Virus record (IMG/VR): IMGVR_UViG_3300042344_000231
Span: 1-35,254 of that record
Strand: one strand, 5' to 3'
From: a virus
Length of the DNA stretch: 35,254 nt
In this document: positions 6,581 through 31,710 of the stretch, in pieces
Layout: every line of letters begins with the position of its first letter
Position numbering within the stretch: position 1 is the first letter of the stretch
Position numbers and translations under genes: made by a program
Notes under the pieces: model-generated
What the model was told of the DNA's origin: nothing
Seen by the model: only the letters and a program-made list of their open reading frames with translations
The model's database searches: none

Positions 6581-6971
6581 CTAATACTTGTCCTTCTATG
6601 ACGCGCTGCTGCGCCTCTTCCAGCGCCGCTATGATGGATATGCGCTGCTCGACTTGAATCTGGACAGATTGGGGAGCCGTCCACTTGTGAACGTGTTTGA
6701 GGATGTCCAGCGCCGCCTTAGTGTCGCCAGCGCGCGCGGCGTTGTGCAGCACCTCGGACATTTCAGCCTCGCCCTCTGCGCGGCCCTTCTGCTCAGCATA
6801 CTCCGCAATCGGGTCGAACTGCACGAGCCTGCGGTATTCGGTCGGCGTCATGCCAGCGGCGTAGGCGAGCGTGTCGCCCTTCAGCCCTTTGCGGGCGGCT
6901 AAGTAGATGCGCTCTAGGACGGCTTCCGTCGCCTCTATTTTGCGCGGCTCATAAGGTAGGCTTTCAAACAT
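6465..6971 (-). CDS. terS: Terminase small subunit
   Basis: The 168-residue helical protein lies directly upstream of terL and overlaps it by 116 bp. Its N-terminal half has a helix-turn-helix-like layout (RIYLAARKGLKGDTLAYAAG, then MTPTEYRRLV) followed by a helical oligomerisation region (KAALDILKHVHKW). This is the standard arrangement of small terminases, which recognise the packaging site and recruit TerL. In P22-like phages the pac site usually lies inside this gene. The Gly/Arg-rich C-terminus is encoded in the overlap with terL and may be constrained by it. The ATG at 6971 shares one base with the stop of the upstream HNH gene (TAATG). Confidence 0.85.
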   Translation of the reverse strand: MFESLPYEPRKIEATEAVLERIYLAARKGLKGDTLAYAAGMTPTEYRRLVQFDPIAEYAEQKGRAEGEAEMSEVLHNAARAGDTKAALDILKHVHKWTAPQSVQIQVEQRISIIAALEEAQQRVIEGQVLDASADLLSGRRTEADGDPMVGAGEERSGRVREDGVPVG

Positions 6972-7447
6972 TACTTAAGCCCCAACACCCGTTTAGCGCC
7001 TTCATGCGCGGCAGCGGCTTCCTCTTTAGTAGCATACGCCCCTAAATAGACTTGTCTATATTCAATGCTTATCCGCGCCTCCCAAGGAAGCTTAGGGCGT
7101 CTAGACGGATTTACGCCGAGGATTCCAGATGAATTGCGGGCGCTAGGCGAACTATTATGCAAATTAGTAGACCTTGTGACTGCTCGCAAATTGACTATGC
7201 GATTGTCGGCGCGATTGCGGTTTATGTGGTCTATGTCGTTTTCAGGCCAAACACCATAGTAGTATAGCCATGCCAGCCTGTGCGCTGGGTAGGTCTTACC
7301 TAACAACCCTATCTGCCAATAGCCTTGTGGGCTAAGACACCCCGGCTCGTCACCGATGTTTTTACGCCCCCATTTTGTTTTGCGACGAAAGACGCCGGCT
7401 TCAGGGTCGTAGTCGAGTAAGGTTTTAAGAGTGTCATGGTCGATCAT
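6971..7447 (-). CDS. HNH endonuclease with C-terminal AP2-like DNA-binding region
   Basis: This 158-residue protein has an HNH_3-type core: PAHRLAWLYYYGVWP, then DIDHINRNRADNRIVNLRA, with the catalytic-type H in D-H-I-N. A C-terminal segment with SSGILGVNPS, WEARI, YLGAYATKEEAAAAHE resembles the AP2 DNA-binding fold. This domain pair is characteristic of free-standing phage homing endonucleases. It ends in a TAATG junction with terS, so it is coupled to the packaging unit. HNH proteins beside terminases can also help packaging in HK97-like phages, but the AP2 tail favours homing. No good ribosome-binding site precedes the ATG; the leader is very AT-rich. Confidence 0.88.
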   Translation of the reverse strand: MIDHDTLKTLLDYDPEAGVFRRKTKWGRKNIGDEPGCLSPQGYWQIGLLGKTYPAHRLAWLYYYGVWPENDIDHINRNRADNRIVNLRAVTRSTNLHNSSPSARNSSGILGVNPSRRPKLPWEARISIEYRQVYLGAYATKEEAAAAHEGAKRVLGLK

Positions 7448-7557
7448 GGTTTTTATTTTACGGTTTTATTTTTTATTTAGCAACAAAAAAATTTTTAAAA
7501 AGTTCGTGCAGACCCTTCGTATTTCTTAAAGGAGATCCCTCGGCCCAGCCCCCCTCC

Positions 7558-7599
7558 CTGTTTACATTGCCAGCCGAATGCCGATCAACTGTTTACATT
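7558..7599. repeat. Direct repeat pair CTGTTTACATT
   Basis: Two identical 11-mers CTGTTTACATT occur at 7558-7568 and 7589-7599, spaced 31 bp start to start, about three helical turns. That spacing would place two bound proteins on the same face of the DNA. The pair lies in the gene-free region, upstream (in transcription order) of the minus-strand HNH-terS-terL unit. It may be an operator or activator site for that unit. Confidence 0.6.
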
Positions 7600-7663
7600 T
7601 AGCTTAACATCATCGAGCATCATGAATGTAGACTTAAAGCATTACGTTAAGTTGACAATCAAA

Positions 7664-7981
7664 CGTCGGATCGTCATGCACTTGAAGGGTTGCGTCACGC
7701 GTTAGCAAAACGTCGGATCGTCATGACGATCTAGGTCCATGCAGAGTGTTTGCGCCTGGACGGCGCGGGACAAAAAACGTCGGATCGTCGGATTGCCATG
7801 CCTTCTGAGGTTCTCCATTACTTTTCACCGTAATTTTACACTAACTGTAATATTACATTAAATCATTACTTCAGACAACTAATACCCATGACGATCCGAC
7901 GATAACTAAGCGCCGCCTAGGATTAAGCCGCCATTGTCCACGACGATTTGACGACGATAAGTCTAGCTAATTTGACGATAA
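7664..7981. repeat. Iteron-like repeats of CGTCGGATCGTCATG
   Basis: CGTCGGATCGTCATG occurs exactly at 7664-7678 and 7711-7725. It occurs inverted, also exactly, at 7887-7901 (CATGACGATCCGACG). A truncated copy at 7778-7789 (CGTCGGATCGTC) is followed by GGATTGCCATG. Degenerate copies of the inverted form end in GACGATAA at 7939-7960 and 7971-7981. The second copy extends into a perfect 16-bp palindrome GATCGTCATGACGATC at 7716-7731. Each direct copy is preceded by an A-run. The pattern resembles iterons or operator arrays rather than CRISPR, as spacing is irregular and one copy is inverted. Confidence 0.8.
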
Positions 7982-8060
7982 CCCGCCGCTCAACCGTAAT
8001 TTTACAGTTGAGCGGTCACTGTAATTTTTTATTTATCCACCGTAATTTTACAAAATTACA
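7827..8060. repeat. Array of palindromic GTAATTTTAC boxes
   Basis: GTAATTTTAC occurs at 7830-7839, 7996-8005 and 8042-8051, and the fully palindromic variant GTAATATTAC at 7847-7856. Three of these lie in the longer ACCGTAATTTTACA. Further half-sites are at 8021-8028 and 8053-8060. The last copies run into the 3' end of the 86-residue gene. The arrangement suggests a dimeric DNA-binding protein or an easily melted element. Confidence 0.65.
7986..8015. repeat. Perfect 9-bp inverted repeat (hairpin) enclosing a GTAATTTTAC box
   Basis: CCGCTCAAC at 7986-7994 pairs with GTTGAGCGG at 8007-8015. The 12-nt loop is CGTAATTTTACA, which itself can pair GTAA with TTAC. It lies 33 bp downstream of the stop of the minus-strand 86-residue gene. 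There is no T-run on that strand directly after the stem, so it is not a classic terminator for that gene. On the plus strand TTTTTT follows 9 bp after the stem. It may be a cruciform-type element of an origin or a protein site. Confidence 0.6.
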
Positions 8061-8308
8061 GCTTCAACATAAGCGTGCGCTCTATTTGTCACGCGCACCT
8101 GAAACTCGCCAGCCTTAAAAACAGTGACGCTTTTCGGCGTCCTTTGTTGCACAACTATTCGACTAGGGATGAATTGGCGAAGACTATCTTTGACCGCGCT
8201 GTATTGGCTGGCGGTTATTTTGTCGGTCTTGTGCAACGCTGTAAGCAGCGCGTCCATATGCTCATAAGACGGCACGTCGTCCTCAAATATTGTTTCTATC
8301 TTCGCCAT
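8048..8308 (-). CDS. Small protein of unknown function (86 aa)
   Basis: The frame opens at GTG 8314, but ATG 8308 has GGAG seven bases upstream and is the better start. The product (86 residues) has an acidic N-terminus (KIETIFEDDVPSYEHMDALL), a helical middle (QYSAVKDSLRQF) and a C-terminus rich in beta-forming residues (SVTVFKAGEFQVRVTN). I recognise no family. It is the only gene on this strand between the repeats and the divergent promoter. Its coding end overlaps one GTAATTTTAC box. A small regulator acting on the neighbouring repeats is a reasonable guess but not supported by a visible DNA-binding motif. Confidence 0.65.
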   Translation of the reverse strand: MAKIETIFEDDVPSYEHMDALLTALHKTDKITASQYSAVKDSLRQFIPSRIVVQQRTPKSVTVFKAGEFQVRVTNRAHAYVEAVIL

Positions 8309-8336
8309 GTTCACTCTCCATAATTACGATGACTGC

Positions 8337-8365
8337 ATTATTACAGTAAAAAGAATTTTACGCAA
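8337..8365 (-). promoter_or_regulatory. Candidate sigma70-type promoter for the 86-aa gene
   Basis: On the minus strand, TTGCGT (8365-8360) and AATAAT (8342-8337) are separated by 17 bp. TG lies one base before the -10 element (extended -10). A start site near 8330 would leave a short leader with the GGAG at about 8319-8316. Confidence 0.5.
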
Positions 8366-8380
8366 GCTGCATTTTTTCGC

Positions 8381-8412
8381 TTGACGCTATCCACAATCCG
8401 TGAGCATATAAC
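8381..8412 (+). promoter_or_regulatory. Candidate promoter for the early small-gene operon
   Basis: TTGACG lies at 8381-8386 and TATAAC at 8407-8412. The spacing between these two is 20 bp, longer than usual. With an 18-bp spacer the -10 would be the weaker CATATA at 8405-8410. A DnaA-box-like 9-mer sits between the two elements and another just after them. The leader to ATG 8436 is short and has AGGAG with good spacing. Confidence 0.4.
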
Positions 8413-8435
8413 GTATCCACATAGGAGCAAACGAC

Positions 8436-10104: not shown

Positions 10105-10339
10105 CCTTGACACCGAACCCGGTGGGGTCATGACCCGCTGGAAGGTCGGAGAGGGGCTGTCACTGCATCGGCGCGACGGCTCGCTCATAATGAGAATCCA
10201 TGCGCCCTATGCTGACGAGCGTTCTGTCGTCACGGCGGCGCACGCCCTCAACTTTATGTTCAAGAGTATCAAAAATGCGAAAGCAAGAGATGATCGAGGA
10301 GATTCAAGAGCTGATAGAGGAAACAGCCCGGAATCATAA
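10091..10339 (+). CDS. Small protein (82 aa) overlapping the DnaA-domain gene
   Basis: The frame runs from ATG 10091 to 10339. Residues 1-60 look genuine and mixed alpha/beta: MLRLDLDTEPGG, MTRWKVGEGLSLHRRDGSLI, then VVTAAHALNFMFKSI. The last 20 residues, rich in Arg, Asp, Ser and Gly, lie in the 65-bp overlap with the DnaA-domain gene and are probably low-constraint. I recognise no family. The operon position suggests an early role. Confidence 0.65.
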   Translation: MLRLDLDTEPGGVMTRWKVGEGLSLHRRDGSLIMRIHAPYADERSVVTAAHALNFMFKSIKNAKARDDRGDSRADRGNSPES

Positions 10340-10520
10340 CCTATCAACCGAGGCCCTGACCGGCCACAACCGCCGCAAGGGGGTCATCTGGCCCCGGTTC
10401 GAGATCATGTGGCGCGCCAGGCATGAGTTAAACGCACCGCTCCAGCTAATCGGGCAGGTGCTAGGGGGCCGCGACCACACGACCATCATGCACGGGATCA
10501 AACGCTATGAAAATCGGTGA
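10275..10520 (+). CDS. Stand-alone DnaA domain IV-like DNA-binding protein (81 aa)
   Basis: The frame is open from 10200, but ATG 10275 gives the natural start MRKQEMIEEI. The 81-residue protein matches the C-terminal DNA-binding domain of DnaA: a helix ending GVIWPRFEIMWRARHEL, then the helix-turn-helix and the signature GGRDHTTIMHGIKRY (residues 64-78). DnaA itself has GRDHTTVLHA, and the D-H-T-T residues contact the DnaA box. The AAA+ domain is absent, so it cannot oligomerise on ATP like DnaA. It may bind DnaA boxes to mark the phage origin, to compete with host DnaA, or to regulate transcription. Three DnaA-box-like 9-mers lie near the operon promoter. Confidence 0.85.
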   Translation: MRKQEMIEEIQELIEETARNHNLSTEALTGHNRRKGVIWPRFEIMWRARHELNAPLQLIGQVLGGRDHTTIMHGIKRYENR

Positions 10521-11527: not shown

Positions 11528-11706
11528 CCATAGCCTAGGCCCTCCAGCAGCTCGCGGGCCGTCTCATGGGCCTGACATAGGCCGTCGACGATCTCCGGCG
11601 GACACTCATCATCCCCCGGAGTGGATGCCCAGTCCAGATATAAATCAAGCTGGTCGGTCAAATTCGCCAAGACGTTCAGGATATTAATTTTTAAGTGCGA
11701 CGACAT
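11512..11706 (-). CDS. Small acidic helical protein (64 aa)
   Basis: ATG 11706 lies within the last 23 bp of the primase-helicase gene, with GGAAAG three bases upstream. The product MSSHLKINILNVLANLTDQL, then DLYLDWAS and ECPPEIVDGLCQAHETAREL, is acidic and helical with two Cys. I recognise no family. It may be translated by reinitiation after the helicase. Confidence 0.6.
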   Translation of the reverse strand: MSSHLKINILNVLANLTDQLDLYLDWASTPGDDECPPEIVDGLCQAHETARELLEGLGYGQSRS

Positions 11707-13963
11707 TATCTTTCCAATCCGGTTCGACCATGTTGCGTAGCTTAGCCTTAGGCAGTGACGCTAGGTCAGGCCGCACGAATATGTGCCGCTTGGATTTGTA
11801 TTCAGGCGAGCTGCATAGCCCCTTGTCAATCCACCCGGCTTCTTTCAGCGCATGAAACAGCGCTGGCTGAACGATTCTTGTCCGTAGATTATCCGGCGCA
11901 GCCTGCGACAGCTCTTTAAGGATGATGTGCCATGGGCCAGATATGATGTCAGTCTTGAATGGCGACTCCTGCTTCTCAATCAAGTGATGGATATAACTCT
12001 CCGCGTTGCTCATGCCGGTATAGATCAAGCGCTGCTTGTATTCTGTCGCAAACGGGATTGCTTTCGGGTTGAACTGCGACACGTCACGCGAACGCAACCA
12101 GCCCGCGACGGCTTCAAATCCACCGGCCTTATACCAGTCCCAGATCCGCGTCGTTTCTTCCGGCGTCATCTTCGGCGCGTCAGACCAAACGCAGAACCAG
12201 CGCCGGTCATCGCTGTCGAGCGTTATTGGCATGGATTCGTTCGTGAACGCCAGCATGAAGATCCGATTAGGCATCTCGAACGGATGCAAGCCTTTGCGGT
12301 TAACTGTCAGCATTTCCGGCGGCGCGGCGATGATCGGCTTGAGCTTGTTAGCCAGCGCCCGACGTTCTTTTGCTTCCGGCTCTTTCAGCTCGTTCAGCAC
12401 CATGATCTCAGTCTGATAATGGTAGCCGAAATCGCTGTTGATCTTATTGCTGTCGATCACCGCGACGTTTCTCATGTGCTCGCCGCCAACGGCCCAGAGC
12501 AGCGGATACCACATAGTGTCCTTGCCGATGCCGCCGTTGCCGCCGTGCAGGATCGCGTGGTTAATCTTCGTGCGCGGCTGCTGTGCCTTCACGGCCATCA
12601 CGTTCCAGATATGCTCAAGCTCGCGTTCGTCCGGCACGAGACGACGGCAATGATCCAGCCAAAGCGTCGGATCCCCCGCGTCGACAACCTCCGGCCTGGC
12701 GTCGCGCCAGACATTGCCATAGACAAGCCCATCGCGCGCGACTTTCCATTCGTCACCGGCAGCGTAGGTCATGCCTTTTAAAACATAACCGCCTTGACTC
12801 TCGCGCTGTTCGTCATACCAAACTGACGCCTCAAGCCGACGCGGCTTTTCGCCTGTGGACTTGCACTCGACATGCCGAAAGATCGCGTTGAACGCGCGGC
12901 GGCTGATCTCTTGGCCTGTCTTATGATCAAAATAACCGTCGTCGTCGACGACATATGCGAAGCGTTTATGCCATGTGGCGCGATCTTCACGCCCAGCTTG
13001 CTTGTCATTTACTTCTTTAACTCGTTTGGCGGCTTCGTCAGGAAATTTTTCGGTCGGCGTCAGCGCGCTAATCTTGCTGGTGTAGTCGGCAATGAGATCG
13101 TCTCGCAGGCCGGGAATGGTGCGCGGGCCGCCTTGTTCCGATACCCAATCGCAAAAGAACTTGCTATCAAGATGCTCGCAATGAGCGTGATAGCAACAGA
13201 ACGAACGATCTTGCGGCTTATATCGCGCTTCAATCTGTCCATCTGTGTGACCTTCGTGATTCGGGCAGACAACGCCGCACCAGCCTTCCGCATTTACGCC
13301 AGACGTAACAAGGCCGTTTTCGCTCAGCCACGCCAGAACCGTGTCGTTGCCGGTGTCCTTTACGCGGAACGTAATACGCTGCGCGTTACCGACTTCCGCC
13401 GGCGTCACGCCAAGCGCCGCGCAGATCTCCGCGAGCGTATATTCTACTTTGTTAAACTCCACCTCACGGCATACGAACGCCTCGCGTTTCGGCTTGACGT
13501 TTACGGAACCCGGAAGACGACAGTTACGCACGGCGTTAGTAGCACCAGGATCGGTATAGCCAGCTTCAGCAATAGCGGTAAGAGCTGCACAATGTTCCTC
13601 CACGGTCGGCTGCTCGGCGTAGGCATACCAATATTGATAGTTGCCGGGGCTCGTCTCGACGATAGCGGTCGGCTGCAATGGCGGGACTTTTGACTTCGTG
13701 CCGATGTCGTCCAGCATCATAAACAGGACGTGCGTGCAGTTCGCCACACTGGCGGAAGGCTTGCCCTGCATACGATCCATAATGAACGAGCCGGTGTTAA
13801 GAAACCAGCTCTCGCCTTCCTTGCGCTTGTGCTTCGGCAGATAAGCAGGCCAAGTATATTTAGGCGAGCCGTCCTTGTGCAGCTTGCCGGTGTCGATCTG
13901 CTTAACAATAAGCGCTGTCTCGCCATCCGGGGCGAGTCCGGTAAAATAATCAAACAGGGACAT
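11684..13963 (-). CDS. Bifunctional primase / SF3-type helicase (replication protein)
   Basis: The 759-residue protein has a primase-like N-terminus resembling RepB-like/archaeo-eukaryotic primases: FMMLDDIG (D85-D86), VETSPGNYQYWYAY (about 102-115) and NCRLPGSVN. A Cys/His cluster follows (C229, C233, H236 and C256-C262) that probably binds zinc. The C-terminal half is an SF3/D5-like helicase: Walker A HGGNGGIGKD (about 473-482), EIMVLNELKE (519-528), FMLAFTNES (569-577) and DSDDRRW (583-589). This build is known from phage and plasmid replication proteins with DUF5906-type helicases. It should prime and unwind the phage DNA for the adjacent polymerase. The start overlaps the Cys-cluster gene by 14 bp. 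Confidence 0.92.
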   Translation of the reverse strand: MSLFDYFTGLAPDGETALIVKQIDTGKLHKDGSPKYTWPAYLPKHKRKEGESWFLNTGSFIMDRMQGKPSASVANCTHVLFMMLDDIGTKSKVPPLQPTAIVETSPGNYQYWYAYAEQPTVEEHCAALTAIAEAGYTDPGATNAVRNCRLPGSVNVKPKREAFVCREVEFNKVEYTLAEICAALGVTPAEVGNAQRITFRVKDTGNDTVLAWLSENGLVTSGVNAEGWCGVVCPNHEGHTDGQIEARYKPQDRSFCCYHAHCEHLDSKFFCDWVSEQGGPRTIPGLRDDLIADYTSKISALTPTEKFPDEAAKRVKEVNDKQAGREDRATWHKRFAYVVDDDGYFDHKTGQEISRRAFNAIFRHVECKSTGEKPRRLEASVWYDEQRESQGGYVLKGMTYAAGDEWKVARDGLVYGNVWRDARPEVVDAGDPTLWLDHCRRLVPDERELEHIWNVMAVKAQQPRTKINHAILHGGNGGIGKDTMWYPLLWAVGGEHMRNVAVIDSNKINSDFGYHYQTEIMVLNELKEPEAKERRALANKLKPIIAAPPEMLTVNRKGLHPFEMPNRIFMLAFTNESMPITLDSDDRRWFCVWSDAPKMTPEETTRIWDWYKAGGFEAVAGWLRSRDVSQFNPKAIPFATEYKQRLIYTGMSNAESYIHHLIEKQESPFKTDIISGPWHIILKELSQAAPDNLRTRIVQPALFHALKEAGWIDKGLCSSPEYKSKRHIFVRPDLASLPKAKLRNMVEPDWKDNVVALKN

Positions 13964-16565: not shown

Positions 16566-16876
16566 TCCTTCTTCTCCAAAGCGGCGCGGGCGGCGTCACG
16601 CCCTTTTTCAAACCCGTCCATGTGGGCAAGGGTAAGACACTCGTTCAAGTCAGCAACTTCCGCTTCAAGTTCCGCGATGCGGGCTTTCAAGGCGTCAACA
16701 TCCACCGCCAGACGATGCACGGCGATCATCTTTTCCAACTCCGCAATCCGCGCCTCTTGCTTGCGGATCAGGCTCATTGCCGCGTGGCAAGCGCCAGCCT
16801 CGCCCGTGTAGCCTTTGGCGTTGAGCCAATCTTCGACGTTCACAAGGTCGGGGTAGGTGTTGGTGTGGTCAGTCAT
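16562..16876 (-). CDS. Coiled-coil protein (104 aa)
   Basis: I place the start at ATG 16876, which has AAGGA upstream; an upstream in-frame start (16903) would overlap the DnaA-domain gene more deeply. The N-terminus (DLVNVEDWLNAKGYTGEAGA) is followed by a long predicted coiled coil: KQEARIAELEKMIAVH, then DVDALKARIAELEAEVADLN, and a terminal RDAARAALEKKE. There is no membrane segment. It may form a dimer or trimer. I recognise no specific family; similar coiled-coil proteins are common in phage early regions. Confidence 0.75.
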   Translation of the reverse strand: MTDHTNTYPDLVNVEDWLNAKGYTGEAGACHAAMSLIRKQEARIAELEKMIAVHRLAVDVDALKARIAELEAEVADLNECLTLAHMDGFEKGRDAARAALEKKE

Positions 16877-17561
16877 GTGGTATCCTTTTCGCCACGCGGC
16901 CAAAGTCCGGCGGTATGTTCGTGCATTTCATCTTCGACGCCTTGCGGCGGATCTCGCAGAGCGCTGACGTGACCTGTTTAGGTGTCTTGCCTAACTGCTT
17001 TGCCACCTGCACATGGCTCAAGCCTTCTTTTATCAATCGGACAATCTCAGACTCGAAAAAAGAAAACCCGTCAGCCGACTTATTTTTATGCACGGCGATC
17101 TTACGCTCTAAAGGCTCCAGCGACGACGGGTCGGCTAAACCTTTCTTGTGCGCGTAAAGCACCGTCGTATGATCGCGCTTAACATATCTCCCAACGCCAG
17201 CATATGACGCATTCGGGATCTCTTCCATGCAGCGGAATATAAATTCCCGCCGCGCCTGCGAGATATGCTTTAGCTGCGATACTCCGAGGATCGACTTGTA
17301 AGGCACCTTATGCTTGAACGCGACCTCGCTCATTATCTTCCGATAGGATGGGGGCAAACCGCTTGTCGCGCCGGGTATATATTCAGCGTTAACCGCAGCC
17401 TCTAGCACCACACGCTGTTGCGGTGTCAGTTCGGGCTCAGACTCCAGCACGCGCAGCGCCCGCGTTGCCACGCGAAGCCTATGCTTGCGCGCTTCTTTGG
17501 ATTGTGATGGGGGTTTGCGTTTCGGGCCGTCATAACCCGCGTAGGGAAACAGATAAGTCAT
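16869..17561 (-). CDS. DnaA domain IV-like protein with second helix-turn-helix (230 aa)
   Basis: The 230-residue product has a basic N-terminus. A DnaA domain IV-like region spans about residues 74-140 (KHISQARREFIFRCMEEI, then GVGRYVKRDHTTVLYAHKKG), which keeps the D-H-T-T of the DnaA-box-binding signature. Residues 168-205 form a second, LuxR/MarR-like helix-turn-helix (EIVRLIKEGLSHVQVAKQLG, then KTPKQVTSALCEIRRKA). There is no AAA+ ATPase. It could recognise the phage origin or act as a transcription factor for the replication operon. A terminator-like hairpin ends two bases before its start codon, and no Shine-Dalgarno is visible, so its expression is probably specially controlled. Confidence 0.82.
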   Translation of the reverse strand: MTYLFPYAGYDGPKRKPPSQSKEARKHRLRVATRALRVLESEPELTPQQRVVLEAAVNAEYIPGATSGLPPSYRKIMSEVAFKHKVPYKSILGVSQLKHISQARREFIFRCMEEIPNASYAGVGRYVKRDHTTVLYAHKKGLADPSSLEPLERKIAVHKNKSADGFSFFESEIVRLIKEGLSHVQVAKQLGKTPKQVTSALCEIRRKASKMKCTNIPPDFGRVAKRIPHD

Positions 17562-19703: not shown

Positions 19704-20917
19704 TCCTTGCGCCAGTCGGCGCGGGCAAGACAGCGATTACGCTAACGGCAATGTCGGACATGACCAGCAAAGGTCATTGCGACCGTTGGCTTGTGTTAGC
19801 GCCAAAGCGCGTATGCACCGACGTGTGGCCTGTCGAGCGGCCTAAATGGGCCGAACACATGAGCATGGCCGTCGCTGTCGGCACGCCAGCGCAACGTAAG
19901 AAAGCGTTCGCCGCTGACGTTGATATAGTCGTCACCAACTACGACAACATCCCGTCGATTGACCCTAAAGACTTTGATGGCATTGTATTCGACGAGCTGA
20001 CGCGGTTGAAAAACCCATCCGGCAAGCGGTTCAAGTTTCTGCTCAAGATTCTCGACCAGTTCAAGATCCGTTGGGGCTTGACGGGATCGTTCACATCAAA
20101 CGGCCTAGAAGATGTGTTTGGACAATGCAAGGTCGTCGACCAAACGCTGCTAGGCCGCAGCAAGGGCGCGTTTCTACAGCAATATTTTTACTGCGTGAAC
20201 CGCGATTTTGGCCAATGGGAGCCGCTGCCGCAAGCGCTGCCGAAGGTCATGGAGACGATTAAGCCGGCGACATACGTGCTGGAGCCTGGCGAGTATAAGG
20301 ATAAGTTGCCGCCGTGCCATGTCGTGCAAATCCGTTGCGATCTGGAAGACCGCACGCCATACGAGAACATGAAGAAGGAATATGTGCATGAAGAGATCAC
20401 GGCTCCTACCGCCGCCGTTGTTACGCAAAAACTACAACAAATCTCCTCAGGCTTCGCTTATGATAGTCAAGGCATTCCTCAGTGGTATGGGCGTCAAAAG
20501 TTCACGACGCTGGCTGAAATAATAGACGAAAACCAACGAGATAACACCATCATCGTCTACAATTACAAAGAAGAATTAGCAGAATTACAGCGCTCGTTTA
20601 ACGTCACGACAATCGACGCACCAAACGCCGTCGAGCGCTGGAACGCCGGCGAGATTGAACTATTGGCGATTCACCCCAAAAGCGCTGGTCACGGGCTCAA
20701 CCTTCAGTTCGGCGGCAACAAGATCGTCTTTCTGTCGCTGCCGTGGTCACTGGAGCTGTTCGAACAGACAGTCGGCCGTCTGCATCGAAGTGGCCAGACG
20801 CGCGATGTATGGTGTTATGTCATCATGTGTAATAAAACTATTGACCAAAGAATCTTTGATGCGCTATACGACAAAAAGGCGTTGGCCGATTTGGCATTGG
20901 AAGAATTAAGATGCTGA
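19640..20917 (+). CDS. SNF2-type DEAD-like helicase/translocase
   Basis: The 425-residue protein has both lobes of a small SNF2-type superfamily 2 motor. Motif I APVGAGKTA lies at about residues 24-32, VLAPKRV (Ia) near 52, and DELTRLKN (motif II, DEL-T instead of DEAH) near 118. The second lobe has SAGHGLNLQFGG and the motif VI-like QTVGRLHRSGQTRDV. It should translocate on double-stranded DNA, probably to remodel or repair replication forks together with the VRR-NUC nuclease encoded in the 64-bp overlap upstream. It overlaps the HNH gene by 7 bp. Confidence 0.92.
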   Translation: MDLRPYQHEAADFLFSRDRAMILAPVGAGKTAITLTAMSDMTSKGHCDRWLVLAPKRVCTDVWPVERPKWAEHMSMAVAVGTPAQRKKAFAADVDIVVTNYDNIPSIDPKDFDGIVFDELTRLKNPSGKRFKFLLKILDQFKIRWGLTGSFTSNGLEDVFGQCKVVDQTLLGRSKGAFLQQYFYCVNRDFGQWEPLPQALPKVMETIKPATYVLEPGEYKDKLPPCHVVQIRCDLEDRTPYENMKKEYVHEEITAPTAAVVTQKLQQISSGFAYDSQGIPQWYGRQKFTTLAEIIDENQRDNTIIVYNYKEELAELQRSFNVTTIDAPNAVERWNAGEIELLAIHPKSAGHGLNLQFGGNKIVFLSLPWSLELFEQTVGRLHRSGQTRDVWCYVIMCNKTIDQRIFDALYDKKALADLALEELRC

Positions 20918-21396
20918 CACAAGACTATATAAACAGCGTGTTACGTTACGACGACGGAAAATTGTTCTGGAAACAGACAATGAATCAGCGCGCGTTTGCC
21001 GGCAAATTTGCCGGTGCGCTACGTGCGCGTGGCGATTATTTAGATATTCAATTAAAAGGTAAAAAATACAGACTGCACAGGCTTGTTTTCTTTATGTTTA
21101 ATGGTTGGTGGCCTACTGTTGTAGACCATATTGACGGCAATACGTTAAACAACAGAATTGAAAATTTACGTGCCGCAACACAACTCCAAAACATATATAA
21201 CAGCCGCATTCGCAAGCGAAATACAAGCGGACATAAAAATGTAAGTTGGTCAAAACGCCACAAAAAATGGATTGTTACTTTGATGTTTGATGGCCGATCA
21301 AAACGATTTGGCGCATTTGAAGATTTAGAGTTGGCTGCGCTCGTTGCAACGGAGGCGCGAGACAAATATCACGGTGAGTTTGCGAGGCACAAATGA
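20911..21396 (+). CDS. HNH endonuclease with AP2-like region (161 aa)
   Basis: The HNH core reads YRLHRLVFFMFNGWWP, then VVDHIDGNTLNNRIENLRA. It is followed by NTSGHKNVSW, WIVTLMFDG and RFGAFEDLELAALVATEAR, which is AP2-like. The protein matches the build of the HNH proteins at 6971-7447 and 31261-31710. It overlaps the helicase stop by 7 bp and the next start as ATGA, so it sits seamlessly in the operon. It is probably a homing endonuclease that targets phages lacking it at this junction. Confidence 0.9.
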   Translation: MLTQDYINSVLRYDDGKLFWKQTMNQRAFAGKFAGALRARGDYLDIQLKGKKYRLHRLVFFMFNGWWPTVVDHIDGNTLNNRIENLRAATQLQNIYNSRIRKRNTSGHKNVSWSKRHKKWIVTLMFDGRSKRFGAFEDLELAALVATEARDKYHGEFARHK

Positions 21397-31260: not shown

Positions 31261-31710
31261 ATGCTGACGGTTCAAATTCTCAAAGAAGAACTTACTTACG
31301 ATCCCGATACAGGCATTTTTACCCGTAAAGACACAGGGCTTATTGCCGGGGATCAGATGAAATCTGGATACTGGCGCGTATCCGTTAAAGGCCGGAGATA
31401 TAGCGCGCATAGATTGGCTTGGCTTTATATGACTGGTAAATGGCCTAATCATCACGTCGATCATATAGACGGCGACAAAATTAACAACCGATTTAATAAT
31501 TTGCGCGACGTAAGCCGAGCGCAAAATATGCACAACGTAACTCACCCAAACTGCAATAATACATCGGGTTTTAGAGGCGTATCGCTCCATCAAGGAAAAT
31601 GGCGCGCGCAAATAATGCTCAACCGTAAGCATATCAAGATAGGTTGTTTTGATACACCAGAAGAAGCACATGCTGCTTACCTTAGTTATAAGTCCTTGAT
31701 AAATCAATAA
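31261..31710 (+). CDS. HNH endonuclease with AP2-like region, inverted insert between gp4-like and gp10-like
   Basis: The core reads YSAHRLAWLYMTGKWP, then HHVDHIDGDKINNRFNNLRD. The AP2-like part has NTSGFRGVSLHQGKWRAQI and IGCFDTPEEAHAAYLSYK. It lies on the plus strand within minus-strand late genes. A near-perfect ribosome site (AAAGGAGG) precedes ATG 31261, and its end overlaps the gp4-like gene end by 7 bp. It is probably a homing endonuclease. It must have its own promoter or be read only from plus-strand transcripts; I see no clear promoter in the 29 bp to gp10-like. Confidence 0.92.
   Translation: MLTVQILKEELTYDPDTGIFTRKDTGLIAGDQMKSGYWRVSVKGRRYSAHRLAWLYMTGKWPNHHVDHIDGDKINNRFNNLRDVSRAQNMHNVTHPNCNNTSGFRGVSLHQGKWRAQIMLNRKHIKIGCFDTPEEAHAAYLSYKSLINQ

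Follow-up and report, generated by a model that had tools for sequence, protein, structure and literature searches.

Iteron arrays of changing sequence at one place in a phage family, most likely origins read by a primase-helicase

The alpha protein of phage P4 combines primase, helicase and iteron binding in one polypeptide; its origin-binding domain is C-terminal, and it binds both ori and crr. For SaPI Rep and SCCmec Cch2, origin iterons are recognised by the C-terminal domain of the helicase (PMC7581432). The NrS-1 polymerase requires an 8-nt sequence, TTTGGTTA, which is present in two copies on opposite strands and is the suggested origin (PMC7102993, PMC8718748). In the structure paper, the Tail of this enzyme was described as having a novel fold, and the basis of recognition was called unclear (PMC7102993). 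In the PLE satellites of Vibrio cholerae, the DNA-binding domain of RepA co-varies with the origin iterons, which was confirmed experimentally by swaps, and escape from an origin-directed nuclease was proposed to drive the switching of origins (PMC8263062).

Here, we analysed a stretch of viral DNA of 35,254 nucleotides (IMG/VR record IMGVR_UViG_3300042344_000231), the whole of which is called the window. It carries a repeat array beside the terminase genes and, several kb away, a primase-helicase gene. The best structural match of this protein is the NrS-1 primase-polymerase (6k9c, 6k9e, 6lrb), with an AEP domain, an SF3-like ring helicase and a C-terminal Tail. NrS-1 differs in having two recognition copies and no array, and recognition is assigned to its helix-bundle domain; in addition, a family A polymerase is encoded separately in the window's genome. 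SaPI PriRep1 (7pds) is also among the fold matches, but SaPI and SCCmec are satellites or islands in which the origin immediately follows the helicase gene. The likeness to P4 alpha lies in the proposed union of primase, helicase and iteron-binding functions in a single protein, whereas the P4 iteron sequence is unlike that of the window, and the C-terminal domain of P4 alpha (1KA8) was not among the best 50 fold matches of the C-terminal fragment. The PLE system is similar in that an initiator's DNA-binding domain co-varies with origin iterons; its initiator is of an unrelated type (RepA_N), and it has two replicon types versus many here.

The array and its counterparts in related phages

The array spans 7664-7981 and runs from forward iterons on the left through an AT-rich centre to reverse iterons on the right:

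7622-7656, no strand: conserved left border TGAATGTAGACTTAAAGCATTACGTTAAGTTGACA (comparison with relatives)
7664-7678, + strand: iteron CGTCGGATCGTCATG, forward copy 1 (exact match)
7711-7725, + strand: iteron CGTCGGATCGTCATG, forward copy 2 (exact match), part of the palindrome at 7716-7731
7716-7731, no strand: 16-bp palindrome GATCGTCATGACGATC (read from the sequence)
7778-7800, + strand: tandem 8-bp units CGTCGGAT-CGTCGGAT-TGCCATG (repeat search)
7801-7885, no strand: AT-rich centre between forward and reverse iterons, a possible melting region (composition; layout shared by relatives)
7887-7905, - strand: reverse iteron CATGACGATCCGACGATAA (repeat search)
7939-7960, - strand: degenerate reverse iterons, CACGACGATTTGACGACGATAA (repeat search)
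7970-7981, - strand: degenerate reverse iteron, TTTGACGATAA (repeat search)

The core TCGTC/GACGA occurs 10 times in 7600-8000, compared to an average of 1.7 (sd 1.6) in 400 bp, and no bin away from the array reaches eight. An earlier note on this DNA had described exact repeat copies in both orientations, degenerate copies, AT-rich DNA and a 16-bp palindrome, and each of these was found again. CGTCGGATCGTCATG is exact at 7664 and 7711 on the + strand and at 7887 on the - strand. When up to three mismatches are allowed, the window holds seven matches, six of them inside the array, while 1.5 are expected and none of 100 shuffles reached seven; this search revealed no second array in the window. 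The degenerate GACGATAA copies (7898, 7953 and 7974) are unusual only in their clustering, since 13 of 100 shuffles contained as many. Between 7801 and 7900, about 68% of the bases are A or T. The locus has the clustered short direct repeats in non-coding, AT-rich DNA of an iteron-type origin. The surrounding region, which had been taken as gene-free, does hold the repeats, but it is not wholly gene-free because an 88-aa ORF with homologues lies at 8048-8314 on the - strand. Cumulative GC skew, proposed earlier as a check on the origin, has its window-wide minimum at 32.5 kb and does not mark the array; the skew follows gene orientation here and is thus uninformative as an origin marker.

Relatives were collected as hundreds of viral contigs through their terminase and primase proteins, and their arrays were located with a conserved non-coding element as the anchor (7497-7560 in the window). 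The earlier note had proposed a search of related genomes for repeats at the equivalent place. Dozens of relatives have an array there, beside the terminase genes and past the conserved element, and they retain the forward, AT-rich, reverse order, though the repeat unit (5-8 bp) is replaced. The unit is TCGTC in the window's group and TAGTC, TCGCC, TAGGC or TATGC in near relatives. More distant relatives have TTGGTCAT, TTAGGG, GTGGGTC, GTGGACC, ATGGGTCA, TGTAAGTC, GTGGGG and others; these units, like the iteron classes used below, were assigned in part by hand. The de novo finder sometimes chose GTAATnTTAC, TGTWWAC, AAGTTAGTGA or coding repeats; in such cases the unwanted repeats were masked or the unit was chosen manually. 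The circular, complete phage genome MW202483 has a TGTTGGTAG array at the corresponding site, and phage DSL-LC05 has repeats of CCCAGTGGGTCAG at the array site. The units of two relatives, TTGGGTTA (L135) and TTTAGGTA (L213), resemble the NrS-1 recognition sequence. Another kind of array, of AAGTTAGTGA repeats alternating between the + and - strands, was seen near the terminase in one group (L140-L171).

Neighbouring elements and the DnaA-like boxes

Several other elements lie in or around the array:

7497-7560, no strand: conserved non-coding element (GTATTTCTTAAAGGAGATCC...GGCCCAG) on the terminase side (comparison with relatives)
7830-8061, no strand: GTAATnTTAC sites at 7830, 7847, 7996 and 8042, part of the 88-aa gene cassette (repeat search)
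8048-8314, - strand: 88-aa ORF co-occurring with the GTAATnTTAC sites (homologues in relatives)
8380-8421, + strand: promoter/leader with two TATCCACA (DnaA-box-like) motifs ahead of the early operon (conserved in relatives)
10278-10520, + strand: DnaA domain IV protein 1 (Pfam E 8.7e-16), which does not track the iterons
16869-17561, - strand: DnaA domain IV protein 2 (Pfam E 1.7e-10), which does not track the iterons

The GTAATnTTAC repeat family was absent from the earlier note. All 8 phages that carry the 88-aa gene have such sites and none of the 35 that lack it does, and this strict co-occurrence points to an inserted cassette. The homologues of the 88-aa ORF in relatives are 46-95% identical, and no match to it was found in Pfam, PHROG or NCBIfam. 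In the window the sites and the gene lie within 7830-8365, and two of the sites fall within the AT-rich centre of the array. On the terminase side, the conserved element adjoins HNH and terminase genes, its core is exact in 90 viral stretches, and it is a candidate packaging site. CTGTTTACATT occurs twice, at 7558 and 7589. TGTWWAC motifs are common in relatives between the conserved element and the array, and several phages that lack the 88-aa gene also carry them within the AT-rich centre. Three HNH_3 endonuclease genes were found (6971-7447, 20911-21396 and 31261-31710), the last of which has an AP2-like domain below the Pfam cut-off.

The three DnaA-box-like 9-mers reported earlier are present with one mismatch each, at 8033 (TTATCCACC), 8387 (CTATCCACA) and 8413 (GTATCCACA), and the two DnaA domain IV proteins are indeed encoded: each has a Bac_DnaA_C match, and the GRDHTT motif is retained in protein 1. 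One-mismatch 9-mers of this kind number 11 in the window versus 4.9 expected, a count reached by 1 of 100 shuffles. The link that had been drawn from these proteins to the array was not supported. The box at 8033 lies within the GTAATnTTAC cassette and the other two in the leader module, the two proteins do not track the iterons, and of 22 more distant phages with arrays, 12 have no detectable homologue of protein 1, although these loci may be partial. Among near relatives, TATCCACA precedes ribosome-binding sites in 67 of 82 occurrences (control 8-mers, 0-2). The leader module is present with a close DnaA-IV protein and almost never where this protein is absent or diverged. We infer from these patterns that TATCCACA is a promoter/leader element of a system separate from the iterons, perhaps regulated by the DnaA-IV protein or host DnaA. 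The genes that it precedes are small and early; it stands ahead of their ribosome-binding sites, and a hairpin resembling GGCGGCGC...GGCGTCGCC often comes before it. Such leaders may form a regulon of the DnaA-IV protein and may allow gene cassettes to be exchanged.

Variation of the primase-helicase with the iteron class

The features of the proposed initiator are as follows:

11684-13963, - strand: AEP primase with SF3/D5-type helicase, proposed initiator (Pfam, predicted fold)
11726-12007, - strand: predicted winged-helix domain at the C-terminus, residues 653-746, proposed iteron reader (predicted structure; best tracker of iteron class)
11795-11812, - strand: wing tip, residues 718-723, SSPEYK, proposed specificity segment (co-variation with the iteron core)

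The protein matches Pfam RepB_primase (E 5.4e-11) and DUF5906 (E 5.6e-14), and both domains lie on one protein in 40 of 40 family members, as in P4 alpha and SaPI Rep. Its predicted fold is closest to the C-terminal region of the NrS-1 polymerase (6k9c, Foldseek E 2.9e-15), and further matches include poxvirus D5/E5, ASFV PrimPol and SaPI PriRep1. An HMM match to NrS-1 (E 1.1e-10) extends across the helicase, which is the only part alike in sequence; homology to the NrS-1-type ring-helicase C-terminal region was thus found by both HMM and Foldseek. The C-terminal domain is predicted to have a winged-helix layout, with a helix at 678-688, an invariant helix at 699-708, strands at 712-717 and 726-730 and the wing between these strands; variable patches lie on either side of the invariant helix (682-695 and 718-723). 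The model of the C-terminal fragment had no significant match in the PDB by Foldseek (best E 0.15), and phmmer against the PDB gave no meaningful match to this domain.

Pairwise protein identity was used as a predictor of shared iteron class and scored by AUC; the comparison covered the terminase subunits, portal, polymerase, DnaA-domain proteins and primase. Residues 655-747 of the primase-helicase, roughly the C-terminal 100, were the best predictor (AUC 0.89-0.93), compared to 0.66-0.77 for its AEP part (residues 36-184), 0.81 for the polymerase, 0.78 for TerL, 0.75 for TerS and 0.59 for the portal. Along the primase, the highest-scoring stretches of nine columns centre on 682-695, and single high columns include 691, 718, 721 and 723. 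DnaA-IV protein 1 scored 0.90, yet near-identical copies fall in different iteron classes: it is 99% identical in L101 and L128, whose iterons differ. L098 belongs to another iteron class, yet its DnaA-IV protein 2 is 99% identical. On these copies, together with the arrays in phages with no detectable protein 1, the DnaA-domain proteins were rejected as iteron readers. The small terminase subunit was rejected on L097 and L106, in which TerS and TerL are 100% identical and the arrays are different.

In near relatives, the wing tip is paired with the iteron core. Phages with an SSPEYK wing have arrays with 8-11 TCGTC and 0-2 TAGTC, while those with MSPKYT, LSTTNK or LSTTHK wings have 8-12 TAGTC and 0-3 TCGTC. 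The CSPKHK wing goes with TCGCC among others, the YS[TS]DYK and YSSD[FL]P wings with TAGGC, and the YSADYR wing with TATGC. We compared 23 diagnostic columns of the primase-helicase that separate the TCGTC type (A) from the TAGTC type (B). In L128, whose array has 10 TAGTC and no TCGTC, the diagnostic residues of the C-terminal half are of type A except for 718, 721 and 723, which are of type B, and 680, which is neither. Another pair, L097 and L107, has terminase and structural genes that are identical over several kb, a primase N-terminal third and polymerase that are 97-100% identical, and differences in the array and the C-terminal two-thirds of the primase. This pattern may reflect one block exchange; the N-terminal thirds, 97-99% identical beside different arrays, make it less likely that specificity is determined by the N-terminal primase domain.

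On a tree built without the C-terminal domain, the TAGTC class requires four changes, at least three of them forced. The wing changes in the matching direction in three of three independent contrasts on this tree, a number of switches (3-4) at which p < 0.05 is unreachable. Among very distant pairs, iteron similarity shows no correlation with the wing segment by itself (rho -0.15), and residues 680-697 do best (partial rho 0.31). The arrays of L094 and L092 have mixed units. One counterexample was found in L378, where a YSADYR wing, of the TATGC type, is joined to a TCGTC array. The break (7370-7843 of its contig) lies between array and primase, at a conserved gene, so L378 may be a recombinant or an assembly chimera, but it still counts against the proposed pairing.

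The array as a candidate origin

The array has a conserved position and layout, its sequence changes, and it co-varies with the C-terminal domain and with none of the other proteins tested; from this we infer that the enzyme physically binds the array, assembles as a ring, melts the DNA and starts replication there. Joint change of the repeats and the six-residue tip indicates that the reader is probably the replication enzyme itself, the primase-helicase. Judged from sequence comparison, the array is most likely an origin whose iterons are read by a primase-helicase that loads itself, with functional parallels in the P4, SaPI or NrS-1 systems. The predicted C-terminal winged-helix domain would bind the 8-bp iterons flanking the AT-rich centre, and the protein would assemble on the array as hexamers, which would melt the centre and then prime DNA synthesis. 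Specificity would be located largely in this domain; within the five-base core, the wing tip would set the second base at least (TCGTC versus TAGTC). We consider this whole account, from origin function to the place of specificity, likely. The earlier suggestion of a phage origin is retained in so far as dozens of relatives have the array at the equivalent place, the iterons surround AT-rich DNA and the primase-helicase co-varies with them, and is given up with respect to the DnaA-domain proteins.

Binding by the primase-helicase could also serve an operator or copy-control site, like P4 crr, in place of initiation. The array does lie between divergent gene blocks and adjoins a promoter, and P4 alpha binds both kinds of site; a single array in the window, an origin-like AT-rich centre between inverted iteron groups and the lack of an identified competing origin-like region make such a role unlikely. 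If the co-variation came only from shared descent or block recombination of neighbouring genes, another protein could read the repeats. Few independent switches, and exchanged blocks that include both array and primase (within about 6 kb of each other), fit this idea, but in L128 the array switched with the wing tip alone changed in the C-terminal half, and, among the proteins compared, terminase, polymerase and DnaA-domain proteins fail to track the iterons; we regard it as quite improbable.

If host DnaA or the phage DnaA domain IV proteins read the array, as an origin or a control region, this would explain the boxes at 8387 and 8413, the Bac_DnaA_C matches and the GRDHTT motif. The boxes are separate from the iterons, different iterons stand beside near-identical DnaA-domain proteins, arrays persist in the 12 phages without a detectable homologue, and TATCCACA precedes the ribosome-binding sites of many genes, all of which renders a DnaA-read array very improbable. 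It is hardly credible that the small terminase subunit reads the array as a packaging (pac/cos) region: the array adjoins the terminase genes, with the conserved non-coding element in between, but it is this element rather than the array that resembles a packaging candidate, and the L097 and L106 terminases are identical beside different arrays.

Given the NrS-1, SaPI/SCCmec and PLE precedents, a system of this kind is already known; what is new is its many-fold diversification in one phage family, of which a partial literature search found no report, and the localisation to the wing tip. With the primase-helicase as reader, iterons and reader would switch jointly in the family, giving many origin specificities at one conserved place. 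A more far-reaching and doubtful possibility is a natural recognition code, in which the wing tip is tuned to at least ten origin units and has been switched repeatedly in small steps, along with every copy in the array, perhaps driven by origin-targeting nucleases, satellites or competing phages, with the NrS-1 8-nt sequence as a like site. What is known of origins and their readers usually comes from single pairs, and this uncultured phage family gives many matched pairs, some of them closely related (L092 versus L128), so that a change in the origin specificity of an initiator becomes directly testable. The approach also allows origins to be located in many metagenomic phages, and, if the proposed reading is true, the Tail of NrS-1-like primase-polymerases would be a possible DNA reader.
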